From Verrucomicrobium spinosum DSM 4136 = JCM 18804 (GTDB taxonomy: Bacteria > Verrucomicrobiota > Verrucomicrobiia > Verrucomicrobiales > Verrucomicrobiaceae), in the NCBI RefSeq assembly GCF_000172155.1, contig NZ_ABIZ01000001.1, positions 4,373,105 through 4,437,104 of the forward strand: DNA of 64,000 nt. Reading direction: 5' to 3'. Position 1 is the stretch's first letter. Each line of letters begins with the position of its first letter. The notes below the pieces were generated by a model. It did not search any database, had not been told where the DNA came from, and was given only the letters and a program-made list of their open reading frames with translations. Made by a program: the position numbers and the translations under genes. This document shows positions 26,343 to 63,256 of this stretch, one piece after another.

Positions 26343-27365
26343 ATGCAAATCGGGATCGACAGCTTCGTGGCAACGTCCACCAATACCACCTCCGGCAACG
26401 CCATCTCTCCAGCCGAGAGGCTGGGCAACCTGCTTGAGGAAATCACCCTCGCGGACGAGACCGGTCTGGATGCCTTTGGCATTGGCGAGCACCATCGCAG
26501 TGAGTTCCTGGATTCTGCACCCGCCGTCATCCTGGCGGCCGCAGCCGCTCGCACCCAGCGCATTCGCCTGAACAGCGCCGTCACCGTGCTCAGCGCAGCC
26601 GATCCTGTCCGTGTGTTTCAGGAGTTCGCGACTCTTGACCTCATTTCGAAAGGACGCGCAGAGCTGGTGGTAGGACGAGGCTCTTTCACGGAGGCGTTTC
26701 CTCTCTTCGGTCTCAATGTGCGAGACTATGACTCGCTTTTTGCCGAGAAACTCGAACTGTTGTTAAAGCTGCGTGCGGAGCCCCATGTCACATGGGCCGG
26801 ACGGCATCGCGCCCCTCTCACAGGGCAGGGCGTCTATCCTCGCCCCTTTCAGGATTCCATCCCCATCTGGCTGGGTGTCGGTGGCACTCCGGCCTCCTTT
26901 GTCCGAGCGGGCACACTGGGCCTTCCGTTGATGGTAGCCATCATCGGAGGCGACCCTCGGCATTTCCGTCCCCTGATAGATCTCTATCGGCAGGCAGGAA
27001 AGGAGGCGGGGCACAAACCAGAAGTGCTCAAGGTGGGGCTGCATTGCCTCGGGTTCGTGGGTCAAACCACCGCCGCTGCCAAAGACGATTTCTTCCCCGG
27101 CTATGCGGAGTCCTTCACCCGCATCGGCAAGGAGCGCGGATGGCCCCCAACCACGCGCGCGCAGTTTGAAGCGGTGGCCGGACCGAATGGAGCCCTGCTC
27201 ATCGGCGATCCCGGCACCGTGGCAGAGAAGGTCGTCCGGCTCAGCAAGGATCTGGGCGGAATTTCCCGGCTGAACTTTCAGATGACCGTGGCTGCGGTGC
27301 CCCATGAGAAGATGCTGGAGTCCATTCGACTGCTTGGGACAGAGGTCGCGCCGCGAGTGAGGTAG
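26343..27365 (+). CDS. Luciferase-like (LLM class) flavin-dependent oxidoreductase
   Basis: This 340-residue protein has the bacterial luciferase-like TIM-barrel pattern: GIDSFVATST, TGLDAFGIGEHHRSEF, IRLNSAVTVLSAADPVRVFQEFATLDLIS (read in pieces), GRAELVVGRGSF and IPIWLGVGGTPASF. Relatives use reduced FMN or F420 to oxidise small organic molecules. It starts after an AGGA sequence 7 bases before the ATG, one of few clear ribosome sites here. A repeat element lies 43 bases beyond its stop. Confidence 0.88.
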   Translation: MQIGIDSFVATSTNTTSGNAISPAERLGNLLEEITLADETGLDAFGIGEHHRSEFLDSAPAVILAAAAARTQRIRLNSAVTVLSAADPVRVFQEFATLDLISKGRAELVVGRGSFTEAFPLFGLNVRDYDSLFAEKLELLLKLRAEPHVTWAGRHRAPLTGQGVYPRPFQDSIPIWLGVGGTPASFVRAGTLGLPLMVAIIGGDPRHFRPLIDLYRQAGKEAGHKPEVLKVGLHCLGFVGQTTAAAKDDFFPGYAESFTRIGKERGWPPTTRAQFEAVAGPNGALLIGDPGTVAEKVVRLSKDLGGISRLNFQMTVAAVPHEKMLESIRLLGTEVAPRVR

Positions 27366-27407
27366 GGACTTGCCCATGTCGTGCCGTGAGGGGGCGCACC
27401 CGGGCGT

Positions 27408-27617
27408 CAGCGTAGCGCAGATTGGCAATCTGCTGTGCCGCCGATTGGCAATCGGCATCAGTCGCGGAATCGGAGCGATTGTCTCACACAAAGGCACGAA
27501 GGTGTGAGGATTTCAAAAGAGGCGGGGGTTCCCAGCCCCGCTCACGCATCCAGCGTCCCTTGATCCCCTTCCCGCTCCGGCCACCCTACAGACCGCGGGG
27601 CCGGAGACCCCGCCTCC
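27408..27617. repeat. Solo copy of a dispersed palindromic repeat element
   Basis: About 210 bases in two parts. The leader (27408-27518) carries two small hairpins, CAGATTGGCAATCTG at 27418-27432 and CCGATTGGCAATCGG at 27441-27455. The body (27519-27617) begins GAGGCGGGGGTTCCCAGCCCCG and ends CGGGGCCGGAGACCCCGCC TCC, an imperfect inverted repeat of about 22 bp around 55 bases. The same leader and body occur at 58740-58957, where the body is then repeated in tandem. No coding capacity is supported. Confidence 0.9.
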
Positions 27618-27637
27618 TTTATTCACGGGCAAGCCTC

Positions 27638-27677
27638 AAAAAAGGCTGCTTTGGTCCTCAGACCGAAGCAGCCTTTT
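27638..27677. terminator. Bidirectional terminator between repeat and aminotransferase
   Basis: A 13-bp stem (GGCTGCTTTGGTC/GACCGAAGCAGCC, one G-T pair) with a 4-base loop is flanked by six A and four T. It lies 24 bases past the stop of the minus-strand aminotransferase and is probably its terminator. Confidence 0.88.
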
Positions 27678-27700
27678 CATCGAACCGAAACTGTTTTTAG

Positions 27701-57570: not shown

Positions 57571-58641
57571 TCACACCGCCCCCAGCCCCCCCGCCACCAC
57601 GCACACCTCGCGGCGGTTGGCAGGCAGTTGAGTTGCCTTCAGAGGCGTCGGCACGAACCGGCGCAACGAGCCCAAGATCTCCCCCACTTTGCTTTCCAAT
57701 CGCTCGTCGGTCATCTTCAGGGTGAGGATGAGCAGCGCAGGACGATGGCGGCGGCACAAGTTCTCAAGATACGGGATCACCACCCCGGGAGCGAGATTCA
57801 TGTCAGATACCAAGACATCCACCTCCGGCGGCAGGTGATGCGGGGCCAGGGTGCCCACCGCCATACGCAGGTGTTGGAACCTCGCACCCGTCGTGGCATC
57901 ATGGAAACCCAGCACATCCGGATCCATCACTCCGGTATCGACGCCATAAACTTGAGCGCCATGTTGGAGGAGAGAATAACTGGCTCCGCCCGGCGCGCTG
58001 CCAAGTTCCAGCACGACCTGCCCTTGCAAGGACTGCTTTCCGTCCAGGCCCGACCAAGCCAGAGCCTGCTCCATCTTCAGCCACGCCCGTGAGGGAGCCT
58101 CCAGGGGCAATTCCAAACGCGGCAACCCGCCTGCGAGTGGGTGATGACTGGCACTGTGAAGATGGCGGCCAAAGAAGAGAGGTTCCGTGGCCTTGTCTCC
58201 CACCATGACGTCAAAAATAAGATCACCACGGTTCGGCCGACTCTCGGTTGGAGCGGACAACCCCGCCCCGAGGGCGAGACCGACCAACCGGGCGCGAATC
58301 GCATCCATATCCGCCCACTGCAAGGTGGACACCCCGTCCTCATGACAATCCCTTGGGAACACATGCAGGTGATAGGGGCGGCCATCGGCAATCTCCCCCA
58401 ACTTCTGGACCAGCGCTTTCTCCTCGGGGAACAACCCCACCGAAGTCCCGGACGCCCGGCCAAACACGCAGCCCAGCTCAAAGCCCGGAGGCAGTATTCT
58501 TGTGGCCTTCCACGTCACGAATTGTGGCCGCATGAAAGCGGGCGTCAGCAGCCCCTCATGCCGCCGCGCGACCTCCGCCTTCAAGAGGCGTTCAGAACCT
58601 TCACGACAGGTGGAATAGACGAATTGGGCAGGAACAGACAC
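57571..58641 (-). CDS. RlmM-like rRNA 2'-O-methyltransferase (FtsJ domain)
   Basis: This 356-residue protein has an FtsJ/RrmJ-like SAM domain in its second half: VVLELGSAPGGASYSLLQHG, QVYGVDTGVMDPDVLGFHDA, VDVLVSDMNLAPGVVI and LLILTLKMTDE. The Lys in ALAWSGLDGK-upstream KMEQ, Asp in SDMN, Lys in TLKM and a late Glu fit the K-D-K-E catalytic tetrad. The N-terminal half (about 1-190) is a THUMP-like RNA-binding region typical of RlmM, which methylates C2498 of 23S rRNA in E. coli. The start is GTG. Target is inferred. Confidence 0.83.
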   Translation of the reverse strand: MSVPAQFVYSTCREGSERLLKAEVARRHEGLLTPAFMRPQFVTWKATRILPPGFELGCVFGRASGTSVGLFPEEKALVQKLGEIADGRPYHLHVFPRDCHEDGVSTLQWADMDAIRARLVGLALGAGLSAPTESRPNRGDLIFDVMVGDKATEPLFFGRHLHSASHHPLAGGLPRLELPLEAPSRAWLKMEQALAWSGLDGKQSLQGQVVLELGSAPGGASYSLLQHGAQVYGVDTGVMDPDVLGFHDATTGARFQHLRMAVGTLAPHHLPPEVDVLVSDMNLAPGVVIPYLENLCRRHRPALLILTLKMTDERLESKVGEILGSLRRFVPTPLKATQLPANRREVCVVAGGLGAV

Positions 58642-58739
58642 AGTAGAGAGATCGGCGTGAGAATGAGGATGCGGAGGAAATCGAACTTTCGACGATTCTG
58701 GCGAAATGACACGAAAAAAGGAGGGCCGTCACGATGCGA

Positions 58740-58857
58740 CAGCGTAGCGCAGATTGGCAATCTGCTGTGCCGCCGATTGGCAATCGGCATCTGTAGTGGC
58801 ACCGGAGCGATTGACTCACACAAAGGCACGAAGGCACAAAGGGCTGAGCACTTCAAA
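58740..58857. repeat. Leader of the repeat element, with two small hairpins
   Basis: This segment matches the leader at 27408-27518 closely. It contains CAGATTGGCAATCTG at 58750-58764 and CCGATTGGCAATCGG at 58773-58787, and CACAAAGGCACGAAGG before the array. It directly precedes the first repeat unit at 58858. Confidence 0.88.
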
Positions 58858-59973
58858 GGAGGCGGGGGTTCCCAGCCCCGATCACCCGCCAAACGTCCCT
58901 TGATCCTCTTCCCGCTCCGCCCACCCCACAGACCGCGGGGCCGGAGACCCCGCCTCCTTTATCCTGCGGCCAAGTCAGCTTGAGACTTGTTCGTGAGTAC
59001 AGGAGGCGGGGGTTCCCAGCCCCGATCACCCGCCAAACGTCCCTTGATCCTCTTCCCGCTCCGCCCACCCCACAGACCGCGGGGCCGGAGACCCCGCCTC
59101 CTTTATCCTGCGGCCAAGTCAGCTTGAGACTTGTTCGTGAGTACAGGAGGCGGGGGTTCCCAGCCCCGCTCACCCGCCAAACGTCCCACGATCCCCTCCC
59201 CGCTCCGCCCACCCATCAGACCGCGGGGCCGGAGACCCCGCCTCCTTTGTTCTGCGGCCATGTCACCCTGAGACTTTTTCGTGAGTACAGGAGGCGGGGG
59301 TTCCCAGCCCCGCTCACCCGCCAAACGTCCCTTGATCCCCTTCCCGCTCCGCCTACCCCACAGACCGCGGGGCCGGAGACCCCGCCTCCTTTACTCGCAG
59401 CCACGTCACCTCGAGGCTTGTTCCCGGGGTACAGGAGGCGGGGGTTCCCAGCCCCGCTCACCCGCCAAACGTCCCACGATCCCCTTCCCGCTCCGCCCAC
59501 CCCACAGACCGCGGGGCCGGAGACCCCGCCTCCTTTATCTGCGGCCATGTGACCTCGAAGCTTGTTCCCGGGGTACAGGAGGCGGGGGTTCCCAGCCCCG
59601 CTCACCCGCCAAACGTCCCTTGATCCTCTTCCCTCTCCGCCTACCCATCAGACCGCGGGGCCGGAGACCCCGCCTCCTTTATCTGCGGCCATGTGACCTC
59701 GAAGCTTGTTCCCGGGGTACAGGAGGCGGGGGTTTCCAGCCCCGCTCACCCGCCAAACGTCCCTTGATCCCCTTCCCGCTCCGCCCACCCCACAGACCGC
59801 GGGGCCAGAGACCCCGCCTCCTGTATTCCGCGGCCAAGTCACCTTGTAGCTTGTTCCCGAGTAAAGGAGGCGGGGGTTCCCAGCCCCGCTCACGCTCCAA
59901 ACGTCCCTTGATCCTCTTCCCTCTCCGCCTACCCCACAGACCGCGGGGCCGGAGACCCGCCTCCTTTGCTCCG
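58858..59973. repeat. Tandem array of eight about 144-bp palindromic units
   Basis: Units begin GGAGGCGGGGGTTCCCAG at 58858, 59002, 59146, 59290, 59433, 59578, 59722 and 59866, a period of 143-145 bases. Each unit has an inverted repeat of about 22 bp: the start GGAGGCGGGGGTTCCCAGCC pairs with the segment CGGAGACCCCGCCTCC about 75 bases later. A 45-base linker joins units. Linkers of units 1 and 2 are identical, as are those of 5 and 6. The last unit lacks one C in its right arm. Frames stay open across the array only because the period is a multiple of three. Confidence 0.93.
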
Positions 59974-59984
59974 CATCCACACCA

Positions 59985-60016
59985 CAAAAAAATGGAGGGC
60001 ATCATGCCCTCCATTT
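59985..60016 (-). terminator. Rho-independent terminator of the carboxynorspermidine synthase gene
   Basis: An 11-bp stem (AAATGGAGGGC/GCCCTCCATTT) with a 5-base loop has a run of A on its low-coordinate side, a T-run on the minus strand. It lies 37 bases past the stop of the polyamine gene. Confidence 0.87.
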
Positions 60017-60052
60017 CTCAAAACGATCTCTGTCAGAACTTGGACCCGCCCC

Positions 60053-61258
60053 TTACACCGCCAGCGACTCGGTCGGGAAGGTTTCCACCCAGGGCAGACC
60101 GTACTTGTTGAGGTCTTCCATGAACGGATCAGGATTAAGCTGCTCGACGTTCCACACGCCGGGCTGGCGGTACTCCGCCGGGTTCGTGAGCAACTGGCGG
60201 GCGGCGATCATGGCAGGGACGCCGGTGGTGTAGCTCACACCCTGGGAGTTGGTCTCGCGATAGCACTCCTCATGGTCGCAGATGTTGTACACGTAGTAGC
60301 GGAGGAGCTGACCGTCTTTGCCAGTGCCTTCGATCCAGTTGCCGATGCAGGTCTTGCCCTTGGTGTCTGCGCCCAGCGTTCCCGGCTCAGGAAGCAATGC
60401 CTTGAGGAACTGGATGGGGACGATGTCCACCCCCTGGTACTTGATGGGCTTGATGCCCGTCATGCCCACGTTCACCAGCACTTCCATGTGCTTGATGTAG
60501 TTGTCCGAGAAGGTCATCCAGAAACGCGCACGACGGATCGGGATGTGCTTCGTCAGGCTCTCCAGCTCTTCGTGGTACAGGCAGTAGATCTTCTTGGGAC
60601 CAATGCCCGCCGGGAAATCAAAGGTACCCCCGATCTCAAGCGGCTTAGTTTCCACCCACTTGCCATCTTCCCAGTAGCGCCCGTTGGCGGTCACCTCGCG
60701 GAGGTTGATCTCAGGGTTGAAGTTGGTCGCGAAAGCCTTGCCATGGTCGCCCGCGTTGCAGTCGATGATGTCGAGCGTGTCGATCTTGCTGAAGTGATGC
60801 TTCAGCGCGTACGCGGTGTACACGTTGGTCACGCCGGGGTCGAACCCGCAGCCCAGCAGCGCGGTCAGACCAGCGTCCTTGAACTTCTGCTGGTAGGCCC
60901 ACTGCCAGTGGTACTCGAACTTGGCCACATCTGGCGGCTCGTAGTTTGCGGTGTCGATGTAATGCACCCCCGCCTCAAGGCAGGCGTCCATGATGGTAAG
61001 ATCCTGGTAGGGCAGTGCGACATTGATCACCACCTCAGGCTTGAACTCCTTCAGAAGGGCGACCAACTGGGGCACATTGTCGGCATCCACACCGGCGGTC
61101 TGAATGGGGCGACTCAGCTCGGCAGCGATGCCGTCGCACTTTGACTTCGTACGGCTGGCAAGCATGATCTCCCCGAAAACTTCCGGAAGCTGGGCGCACT
61201 TGTGGGTGACGACACGGCCGACACCGCCGGCACCAATGATGAGGACTCTGTGGGACAT
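60053..61258 (-). CDS. Carboxynorspermidine synthase-like saccharopine dehydrogenase
   Basis: This 401-residue NAD(P)-dependent enzyme has the Rossmann motif VLIIGAGGVGRVVTHKCAQL and a segment AGVHYIDTANYEPPDVAKF. It matches the Lys1/carboxynorspermidine dehydrogenase group: LLGCGFDPGVTNVYTAYALK, YYVYNICDHEECYRE and GVSYTTGVPAMIAARQLL. In that pathway it condenses aspartate semialdehyde with putrescine or diaminopropane. It is 69 bases downstream of speA on the same strand, which fits polyamine synthesis. A decarboxylase partner (NspC) is not in the window. Confidence 0.87.
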   Translation of the reverse strand: MSHRVLIIGAGGVGRVVTHKCAQLPEVFGEIMLASRTKSKCDGIAAELSRPIQTAGVDADNVPQLVALLKEFKPEVVINVALPYQDLTIMDACLEAGVHYIDTANYEPPDVAKFEYHWQWAYQQKFKDAGLTALLGCGFDPGVTNVYTAYALKHHFSKIDTLDIIDCNAGDHGKAFATNFNPEINLREVTANGRYWEDGKWVETKPLEIGGTFDFPAGIGPKKIYCLYHEELESLTKHIPIRRARFWMTFSDNYIKHMEVLVNVGMTGIKPIKYQGVDIVPIQFLKALLPEPGTLGADTKGKTCIGNWIEGTGKDGQLLRYYVYNICDHEECYRETNSQGVSYTTGVPAMIAARQLLTNPAEYRQPGVWNVEQLNPDPFMEDLNKYGLPWVETFPTESLAV

Positions 61259-61327: not shown

Positions 61328-63256
61328 TCAGGACTCGAAATACGTGTAGCCACGCAGGCCGTTTTCATACGCTTCCATGATGGAGAAGCGCTCCTTCGCT
61401 GTGATGCGTTTTTTCACCACCGCGTCCTCAGCGAGCACGCGGAAACGGCGCACCATTTCCTTGGGATCGTATTCCACGTAGCTCAGCACTTCACTGACGG
61501 TGTCCCCCTCAAGCTCGCGGGTGTACTTCAGCTTGCCGTTCTCCATGCGCACGCTGACCACGTTGGTATCGCCCAAGAGGTTGTGCAGGTCGCCCAGCGT
61601 CTCTTGATACGCACCCACGAGGAAGATGCCGAGCATGTACTCGTCCTCTACCTTGATGTCGTGGAGGGGCAGGCTGGACTTGATCTCGCGGTCATGAATG
61701 AACCGGTCGATCTTGCCGTCACAGTCGCAAGTGATGTCGCTCAGAACCACCGTGCGTGTGGGCTTCTCCTTCAGCCTGTGAATGGGCATGACCGGGAAAA
61801 GCTGGTCGATGGCCCAGAAGTCAGGCAGGGACTGGAAGACGCTGAAGTTCCCGTAGTAAAAGTCTGTGAGGACCGCATCCAGCCGGGCCATCTGCTCGGC
61901 GGTAAAGTTGCCCGATTTCACGTGCTGGGCGATCCAGGCGAGGATCTCCCAATAGAGCTCCTCACCCTGTGCACGCTGACGGAGACTGACCTTCCCGGAG
62001 CCGAACTCGGAGCGGATCTTGTCACGATAGTACACCGCATCGTTGTAGATCTCCTGAAGGAACTCTGAGGTGAGCTTCTGGCCGTTCTTGCGCACGCGTT
62101 CACAGAGCTCGAAGACATTCTTCAGCAGCGGCGGCGACTTGGCCGGGAGCTTCTTGATGCCGGAGGCCTCGTAGCGGTTGATGTCCAGCACGTTGATGAC
62201 GAGCACGGAATAGTAGGCCACGATGGCACGACCGGATTCCGAGATGATGTTGGGGTGCGGGATGCCAGCCTCATCGGTGACTTCACTGATGGCCTCGATG
62301 ACGTCCGCGCAGTACTCCTTCATGCCGTAGTCGGCGCTGCTGGTCTCGTTGGACTTCAGTCCGTCATAGCTGATGGCCAGACCGCCGCCGAGGTCCAGGA
62401 TGCCCATCTTGGCACCTTCCTGCACCAGGCCGACATAGACGCGGGCAGCCTCCACCGCCGCGTTACGAATGGCGCGAATGCTCGGGATCTGGGAGCCCTG
62501 GTGGTAGTGAAGCATCTGTAGGCAGTCGAGCATGCCCTTCTCGCGCAGGACGTCCACGGTCCGCATCACCTGGCTGATGTTCAGACCAAAGACGCTCTGG
62601 TCCCCACCGCTCTCGCTCCAGTGACCGGCGCTCTCCGTGGAAAGTCGAATGCGCACACCGAGCTGCGGCGTGATGCCGAGCAGCCTCGATCGCTCCAAAA
62701 TGAGATCAAGCTCACTGGGCATCTCCAGCACGAGGATGACCTGCAGGCCCATCTTCTGCGCACGCAGGGCGAGATCAATAAACTCCTCGTCCTTGTACCC
62801 GTTGCACACGATGTAGGCCTCTGGATCCTGCATGTAGGCCAGGGCGGCGATGAGTTCCGGCTTGCTGCCAGCCTCGAGACCGTAGTGATACTTGCGACCA
62901 TAGCGGGTGACTTCCTCAATCACCTCCTGCTGCTGGTTTACCTTGATGGGATAGACGCCACGATAGACGCCCTTGTAGTTAGCCTCACGGATGGCGTTGT
63001 TGAAGCTCTCGTTGAGCTCCTCAATCCGCCAGCGAAGCAGATCACCAAAACGGATCAGCACGGGAAGCTGCATGCCACGCTCGCGCATGCCGCGAACGAT
63101 GTCGGGCAGACTGACCGGTTTCGTCTTTGTCCCATCCTTCAGATTCACCACGACTTCGCCTTTGGCGGAGACGTCAAAGTATCCATTGCCCCAGTCGCGA
63201 ATGCCGTAGGTGGTGGCGGATTCCTCGATGGACCACGGGGGGAGTTTTTTGCTCAT
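61328..63256 (-). CDS. speA: Biosynthetic arginine decarboxylase
   Basis: This 642-residue PLP enzyme makes agmatine from arginine. The PLP lysine is in YRGVYPIKVNQQQEV (about 97-111). Other landmarks are LEAGSKPELIAALAYMQD, HYHQGSQIPSIRAIRNA, LDLGGGLAISYDG, and the C-terminal EDEYMLGIFLVGAYQETLGD with LLGDTNVVSV. Length equals the SpeA family. It precedes the carboxynorspermidine-synthase gene, so agmatine-derived putrescine is the likely substrate of that enzyme. No signal peptide is seen. Confidence 0.95.
   Translation of the reverse strand: MSKKLPPWSIEESATTYGIRDWGNGYFDVSAKGEVVVNLKDGTKTKPVSLPDIVRGMRERGMQLPVLIRFGDLLRWRIEELNESFNNAIREANYKGVYRGVYPIKVNQQQEVIEEVTRYGRKYHYGLEAGSKPELIAALAYMQDPEAYIVCNGYKDEEFIDLALRAQKMGLQVILVLEMPSELDLILERSRLLGITPQLGVRIRLSTESAGHWSESGGDQSVFGLNISQVMRTVDVLREKGMLDCLQMLHYHQGSQIPSIRAIRNAAVEAARVYVGLVQEGAKMGILDLGGGLAISYDGLKSNETSSADYGMKEYCADVIEAISEVTDEAGIPHPNIISESGRAIVAYYSVLVINVLDINRYEASGIKKLPAKSPPLLKNVFELCERVRKNGQKLTSEFLQEIYNDAVYYRDKIRSEFGSGKVSLRQRAQGEELYWEILAWIAQHVKSGNFTAEQMARLDAVLTDFYYGNFSVFQSLPDFWAIDQLFPVMPIHRLKEKPTRTVVLSDITCDCDGKIDRFIHDREIKSSLPLHDIKVEDEYMLGIFLVGAYQETLGDLHNLLGDTNVVSVRMENGKLKYTRELEGDTVSEVLSYVEYDPKEMVRRFRVLAEDAVVKKRITAKERFSIMEAYENGLRGYTYFES

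Follow-up and report, generated by a model that had tools for sequence, protein, structure and literature searches.

A tandem array of GGAG-footed REP pairs in Verrucomicrobium spinosum: a probable RAYT-linked REPIN cluster with an apparent replichore bias of orientation

The window, that is the whole stretch of DNA that was analyzed, comprises 64,000 nucleotides of the 8,220,857-base chromosome contig (C1) of Verrucomicrobium spinosum DSM 4136; its own positions are given without prefix below, and loci elsewhere in the genome are given as positions of C1. Within the window, a tandem array of hairpin-bearing units sits downstream of a minus-strand gene pair, arginine decarboxylase and saccharopine dehydrogenase-like, and before a gene for an FtsJ-like methyltransferase (Table 1). 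The two genes of the pair are neighbors, the saccharopine dehydrogenase-like gene not being part of the element, and since a terminator-like hairpin followed by a T run intervenes, the array need not belong to their transcript. Immediately upstream of the array lies an element of a second, GTAG-footed REP family. The same composite order, a second-family element first and a GGAG-footed element after it, is common to the array and to a single dispersed copy of the array's REPIN situated between convergent genes elsewhere in the window.

Table 1. Features of the array, its neighborhood and the single REPIN copy (positions in the window).
Feature	Position	Strand	Basis or remark
Second-REP-family element, immediately upstream of the single REPIN	27404..27480	+	
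Single dispersed REPIN copy (same as the array's), between convergent genes	27518..27617	+	same strand as the array
FtsJ-like methyltransferase gene, flanking the array on the other side	57571..58641	-	PF01728
Second-REP-family element (GCAGATTGGCAATCTGC / GCCGATTGGCAATCGGC, GTAG foot), immediately upstream of the array	58731..58812	+	
REPIN of the first unit: GGAG-footed L REP (58858-58884), linker, inverted R REP (58931-58957)	58855..58963	+	
Tandem BIME/REPIN array, 8 x 144 bp	58858..59973	+	strand expected for its replichore
Unit 2, equal to unit 1 in 144/144 bases	59002..59145	+	direct comparison
Terminator-like hairpin and T run, between the array and the minus-strand gene pair	59986..60014	-	sequence inspection; not listed by the terminator scanner
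Saccharopine dehydrogenase-like gene	60053..61258	-	PF16653, PF03435
Arginine decarboxylase gene	61328..63256	-	PF02784, PF17944, PF17810

A first-pass annotation, made from the sequence alone, had described the array as eight tandem copies of a 144-bp unit, and this description is borne out by Tandem Repeats Finder (58857-59967, period 144, 7.7 copies, 91% matches, score 1724) as well as by a scan with the consensus sequences of the two hairpins of the unit, L and R, which finds 16 hairpins in strict L,R alternation. As the spacings of these hairpins alternate between 73 and 71, the units begin every 144 bp exactly (58858, 59002, 59146, 59290, 59434, 59578, 59722 and 59866), so that the spacing of 143-145 bases given at first was close to the actual one. 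Each unit is composed of a 27-bp L hairpin, a 46-bp C-rich linker, a 27-bp R hairpin and a 44-bp join to the next unit. L and R are hairpins with 6-bp stems, each immediately preceded by GGAG on its own strand; every unit pairs two REPs that differ from each other and stand in inverted orientation, which is the BIME/REPIN arrangement. The outer inverted repeat of the unit, put at about 22 bp in the first reading, is perfect over 13 bp (AAAGGAGGCGGGG/CCCCGCCTCCTTT) and continues beyond that with interruptions, and the DNA of the first REPIN folds better than all of 200 shuffles (z -3.19 and -3.56 for the two strands, 0/200 as good). The single long hairpin per unit that had been proposed is just one possible fold: at several array starts in the genome L is replaced by an unrelated hairpin, T (GTAGTCCGGTTGTCCCAACCGG, with a GTAG foot), which cannot form the same outer stem with R. 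Because T can replace L, the short hairpins are the constant feature, not a long fold of the whole unit. Units 1 and 2, whose linkers had been noted as identical, are identical throughout, which is the mark of a recent duplication; units 5 and 6, noted likewise, share an identical inter-unit join and yet differ at 7 of 144 positions.

The array is not a product of chance, since its unit recurs at no fewer than 37 loci of the chromosome, into which at least 122 matches to a single query unit cluster (40 of 85 first-look candidates were scored, so that weaker copies could have been overlooked). The core of L occurs 114 times in the genome with up to two mismatches, against 0 for its reversed control. 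In the sampled sequence, 57 L-R and 76 R-L hairpin pairs were counted, and 13 loci are tandem arrays with at least five hairpins on one strand, apart from a cluster at 4774878 in which the strands are mixed. The period is about 143-145 bp at nine of the 13 arrays; the others repeat at 264-265 bp (11 kb), 205-207 bp (2.09 Mb), 316 bp (4.179 Mb) and 339-340 bp (4.171 Mb), with extra DNA inside the repeated unit. At the last two (C1:4178895-4179692 and C1:4171099-4173236) the R-join-L segment is kept and other DNA is co-amplified with it. Among the small loci, those at 4053936, 4400622 and 8005562 have the canonical REPIN order L-linker-R, GGAG being at each outer end or close to it, and those at 462999, 1604652, 4738188, 5818204 and 6908144 are R-join-L with the recurring 44-bp join. 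The hairpin anatomy and both spacers, linker and join, thus recur at dispersed loci with unrelated flanks. The earlier remark that such arrays are uncommon may hold for bacteria at large; it does not describe this genome, with its 13 arrays, and tandem REPIN clusters are already described in the available portion of PMC3116915. The unit was found in three of 38 sampled genomes, all of Verrucomicrobium, and none was found in a fourth member of the genus, represented by a 76% complete genome. The mixed-strand cluster lies in a stretch, C1:4768000-4787999, that is a mosaic of L, R, T and other hairpins, several of them spaced by about 178 bp, with a coding density of 0.49 according to the simple gene finder used here. 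Another sampled stretch, C1:1200000-1219999, has a GC content of 51% against about 60%, a strong skew and no called genes despite long frames, and is probably a genomic island.

The size of the array differs between close relatives. At the window-array site, which one contig spans with both flanks in each of the two relatives compared (draft genomes G001 and G003), the 16 hairpins of V. spinosum face 4 in G003, three of these with 3-6 mismatches, and 2 in G001; at the 3177 kb site there are 12 hairpins against 4 in G003, and at the 5886 kb site 6 against 3 in G001. As draft assemblies can collapse arrays, the numbers in the relatives are minima. G003 appears to be Verrucomicrobium sp. BvORR106, which gives the best named match to the protein of the neighboring gene (98% identity) and whose sequence at the locus agrees with that of G003. 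Identity is higher within arrays than between them, both for the REPINs (0.930 versus 0.875) and for the joins (0.906 versus 0.849), and identical or near-identical joins recur at non-adjacent places of one array, which together point to local block duplication combined with spread between loci. A scar of repeat amplification, one of the three functions or origins first suggested, is therefore right in part, in view of the identical units 1 and 2, the shared internal joins and the 4 and 2 hairpins of the relatives against 16.

No clean empty site with a defined insertion boundary was found at the two sites examined, the single REPIN of the window and the locus C1:8005562; at the latter, both relatives carry unrelated sequence. 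At the former (compared over 27290-27700 of the window), both relatives carry a different GGAG-footed REPIN (GGAGCGGCGGTTTGTGC...), whose hairpin is also present beside a RAYT-like gene of G001. This convergent intergenic site looks as if it has been re-used by different REPIN families across the relatives.

The genome contains 39 matches to Y1 transposases, some of which are two parts of one gene, and among the 37 unit loci listed only one, at 1.98 Mb, has such a match within it. Here, a RAYT-like frame (C1:1981000-1981632, with an uncertain start codon) lies between two blocks of the same REPs as those of the window, 1980012-1980907 and 1981620-1982078, which constitutes the REPtron arrangement of a Y1 HuH gene flanked by the same REPs. 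The last codons and the stop of this gene fall in the end of a linker and the adjacent L REP (C1:1981600-1981650); since these supply the C-terminal codons and stop, the gene apparently stands where one R-linker segment would otherwise be. The same site in G003 holds a short T-R-L-T element in the opposite orientation and no RAYT gene.

The encoded protein reaches the cut-off of the Pfam Y1_Tnp model (32.3 bits, cut-off 23) and stays under those of the NCBIfam models REP_Tyr_transpos NF047646 (67 bits, cut-off 80) and transpos_IS200 (23.8 bits, cut-off 55). Its sole solved relative by sequence in the PDB is TnpArep (4er8, E 1.3e-4), with whose HMH and Tyr its own HVH and following Tyr align, as does a WQ...R stretch. 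In E. coli TnpAREP, the foot-recognition region includes W94, Q95, E100, H101 and R104, and in some subclasses E100 is replaced by D and sometimes H101 by R, as given in the accessible part of PMC6006769; at the aligned places, the protein considered here has W, Q, D, R and R. The predicted product may thus be called RAYT-like, as the gene arrangement and the catalytic residues fit.

Relatives of RAYT occur in 33 of the 38 sampled genomes and the unit in three, a distribution that is expected if each RAYT has its own REP. Sixteen RAYT-like genes (the one at C1:1981000-1981632, 11 in relatives and four others of this genome) were examined for hairpins at their flanks: matched, inverted hairpins with a G[GT][AG]G foot are present on both sides of six, all of them with GGAG, against 2 of 240 mismatched flank pairs, and the other ten genes do not pass this strict test; under a looser test with no fixed foot the numbers are 11 of 16 against 21 of 240, some of the 11 not being GGAG hairpins. 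The second REP family (GATTGGCAATC hairpins, GTAG foot) has at least 40 matches in the genome, where the search scored 40 of 71 candidates and may have missed weaker copies, and two of its elements flank, in inverted orientation, another RAYT-like gene, C1:589857-590441.

Taken as a whole, the array is probably a locally amplified REP/BIME cluster of the REPIN type and the non-autonomous partner of a RAYT-like Y1 HuH transposase. It belongs to a known kind, because its units are REP pairs and a RAYT-like gene resides inside an array of the same unit; short palindromes follow a conserved tetranucleotide foot, and inverted REPs with a spacer exist in many extragenic copies. The closest descriptions concern the REPINs of Pseudomonas fluorescens SBW25 (Bertels and Rainey 2011), which, in the part of PMC3116915 consulted, are likewise inverted REP pairs, form tandem clusters that include flanking DNA and cluster next to RAYTs. 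Pseudomonad REPs nevertheless have other sequences and GTGG or GTAG feet (PMC3686654, in part), and here the two REPs are unlike and footed by GGAG. Similarly, E. coli BIME-2 and its REPtron, as far as excerpts of PMC6006769 and PMC8266576 describe them, combine unlike, inverted REP subtypes, tandem copies and a transposase gene amid REPs; the present system differs in its GGAG rather than GTAG foot, in its more distant protein (below the cut-off of the REP transposase model, as noted above) and in the stop codon inside a REP. REPs with GTAG feet have been reported from Opitutus terrae, in the same phylum, and resemble those of V. spinosum by their description in a portion of PMC3733652 as REP dimers, the same paper giving tandem clusters with flanking DNA for GTAG families; their foot differs from the GGAG of L and R, GTAG being found here in the T hairpin. 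As L and R are footed by GGAG, they fall outside the GTAG super-family, whose foot is GTAG or GT[AG]G. The letters GGAG have no occurrence in the text of PMC2817692, PMC3733652, PMC6006769 and PMC8266576, and in the portion of PMC3686654 at hand they occur within sequences beginning with GT[AG]G. The IS200/IS605 family (IS608, ISDra2) shares the Y1 HuH enzyme, the hairpin ends with a tetranucleotide guide and the action on single-stranded lagging-strand template, according to a part of PMC6006769. By comparison, the RAYT-like gene here is surrounded by REPs and the units themselves lack a transposase gene, so that the system does not qualify as an IS200/IS605 insertion sequence, in which a transposase gene and the hairpin ends on either side of it move as one unit. 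The variant features of the system are thus the GGAG foot and the unlike REPs, and its marked replichore polarity is the part worth following.

The layout of the chromosome was deduced from GC skew and parS-like sites. In the samples, GC skew is mostly positive from about 0 to 4.09 Mb and mostly negative beyond, some samples being weak or opposite, and parS-like sites are found at 486 and 1343 (the search also listed 2.87 and 4.07 Mb); the origin is thus probably near 0 and the terminus near 4.09 Mb. The dnaA gene was discarded as an origin marker: the only dnaA-type match, C1:5085813-5086295 (5.09 Mb), lies well away from both the skew minimum and the parS-like sites close to 0. An E. coli-type dif was sought near the terminus and not found with up to 10 mismatches in 4.000-4.185 Mb (minus 3,144 bases), nor with up to nine in 1,354,799 other sampled bases. 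Relative to this layout, a rule of orientation emerges: minus strand for units in the first half of the chromosome, plus strand for those in the second. It is followed at 30 of the 37 listed loci when no cut-off is applied (binomial p 1.9e-4), at 26 of 28 loci scoring at least 55 bits (p 3e-6) and at 23 of 24 scoring at least 80 bits (p 3e-6), whereas called genes are nearly balanced in the samples, with 420 leading and 369 lagging. Among the 36 loci with a gene context (4783183 is absent from the gene-finder table), those between convergent genes follow the replichore in 12 of 12 cases when restricted to scores of at least 55 bits, and in 15 of 18 when all are counted, and those between divergent genes in 2 of 3 (3 of 5 without cut-off). 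Between co-directional genes, the replichore predicts the orientation at 12 of 13 loci and gene strand at six of 13, so that an orientation set by transcription is rejected.

The bias is seen for the complete unit in this genome. L REPs outside the unit, picked by eye among the best 100 of the 114 L-core matches, follow the rule at three of nine places, or at one of seven once 3874217 and 4775267, which lie within 3 kb of weak unit loci, are set aside; if anything, they run opposite to it. Six L hairpins without a linker (C1:260684, 424666, 2216004, 6462895, 8072279 and 8088021) are all against the rule, too few to judge. A GGGATCTCCGGTCCC sub-type, assessed by eye among the best 100 of 136 places (reversed control 20), follows it at two of five loci, two of the five being also among the 37 unit loci. 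The second REP family is without replichore bias, at 16 of 35 loci grouped by eye from its best 40 matches. In the drafts of G001 and G003, a test against local skew finds agreement at 28 of 37 loci, most of which are matched to a unit locus of V. spinosum (38 stretches were chosen from unit matches; five of less than 9 kb, of which two agree, are left out of the 37); at the loci unmatched to any unit locus of V. spinosum the figure is 6 of 11. The replichore bias hence belongs to the complete unit in this genome, over separate sites, and is not replicated at the non-shared loci of the relatives. There is precedent for such polarity of arrays, since the GI-GIII arrays of SBW25 are mirrored, running forward around 2 Mbp and in reverse around 4 Mbp (PMC3116915); in contrast to SBW25, the replichore is followed here by single loci too, not by arrays alone. 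An open-licence literature search, covering papers in part, returned none testing the polarity of REP-family arrays against gene direction.

An unlikely alternative is that the element has been recruited by the host to act on transcripts or DNA, as a 3'-end mRNA stabilizer, a terminator, or a gyrase or IHF site, as for the BIMEs of E. coli, and that its copies are kept for that purpose. The extragenic location is compatible with this: no called gene extends across any of the 36 loci (the simple gene finder flags only genes spanning a whole locus and missed some genes, including the RAYT-like one), half of them, 18, lie between convergent genes, and terminator-like R hairpins are called in five of the eight units of the window array. 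Orientation nevertheless ignores the strand of the flanking genes, as the co-directional loci show, the one site compared is occupied by different REPIN families among the relatives, hairpin number varies from relative to relative, and R has no strong T run after it.

It is also doubtful, and rather improbable, that the polarity arose by later selection, with an insertion that is not strand-specific and a fork-related polar motif in the linker that is tolerated only in the direction from origin to terminus. The motif in question would be the FtsK-orienting GGGNAGGG, which we take to be KOPS-like on the model of E. coli and which may not be the KOPS of this organism. All 14 loci with GGGNAGGG are oriented from origin to terminus and none of the seven exceptions to the rule holds it; counted over the 37 elements, all 38 of its occurrences are in the leading sense; and L REPs without linker do not obey the rule. 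Outside the repeats, 72.6% of its occurrences are leading, with a z-score that ranks 4 among 12,848 similarly shaped patterns. Patterns of equal composition, however, are 64-73% leading, so that the skew of GGGNAGGG matches the expectation from its G content, and 12 of the 14 loci that reach 55 bits but lack the motif keep the orientation. A KOPS-driven polarity is weakened on both counts.

It is improbable that the array is nothing but a plain tandem repeat scar, in which slippage or unequal recombination multiplied one palindromic segment and ordinary duplication carried it elsewhere, a transposase playing no role. The identity of units 1 and 2, the joins repeated at several places within one array and the locus-specific periods (about 144, 206, 264, 316 and 340) do point to local amplification, but slippage explains neither the dispersed copies with unrelated flanks, nor the recurring hairpins, nor the presence of a RAYT-like gene in the family, and it leaves the replichore polarity unaccounted for. 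Finally, a cluster of structured non-coding RNA genes, another of the early suggestions, is scarcely credible: the first REPIN does fold better as RNA than shuffled sequences (z -3.92 and -3.13 for the two strands), but inverted REP pairs explain such folding, no Rfam family reaches its gathering score in 58600-60100 (three microRNA models come at E 0.80-0.87 and 21.6-22.9 bits, against 80-99), no sigma-70 promoter-like site is found in 58500-60200, and the terminator-like hairpin of Table 1 stands between the array and the gene pair.

As for the REPIN cluster and its RAYT-like partner, the analogy of IS608 has led to the proposal that REPINs, too, are transferred as single strands at the replication fork. 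On this model, the RAYT enzyme would bind the GGAG-footed hairpin in DNA that the fork has left single-stranded; the target strand would be the lagging-strand template, carrying the complement of the unit; cutting and joining of the hairpin DNA by the enzyme would seed copies in one orientation; and a seeded element would then expand or contract in tandem by recombination or slippage. In the orientation of the rule, the lagging-strand template does carry the complement of the unit, matching in sense the coding strand of the RAYT-like gene at its own locus, and the polarity of the unit would fit an IS200/IS605-style action on that template. As E. coli TnpAREP acts on single-stranded REP and not on its inverse (PMC8266576, available in part), activity might be confined to one strand in an element whose ends are unlike. 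The hairpins, as REPs, are putative RAYT targets, and the early suggestion of a protein-binding array is plausible in this form; any benefit of the array to the cell, which is unproven, would be secondary. By extension, and more tentatively, it is possible that a GGAG-footed class of REP/RAYT systems in the Verrucomicrobiaceae works on one replication strand, the asymmetric pair being captured on the lagging-strand template, in which case the copies would be a chromosome-wide record of single-strand mobility coupled to the fork.

For the question of how REPs and REPINs spread, an unlike-ended element whose strand tracks the replichore and not the genes is a testable footprint of a single-strand route at the fork, and the second REP family of the same genome, being free of the bias, serves as an internal comparison. 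With GGAG as foot, the range of guide sequences in this group of enzymes becomes wider, and the arrays, which differ in size between close relatives, offer sites for measuring turnover.
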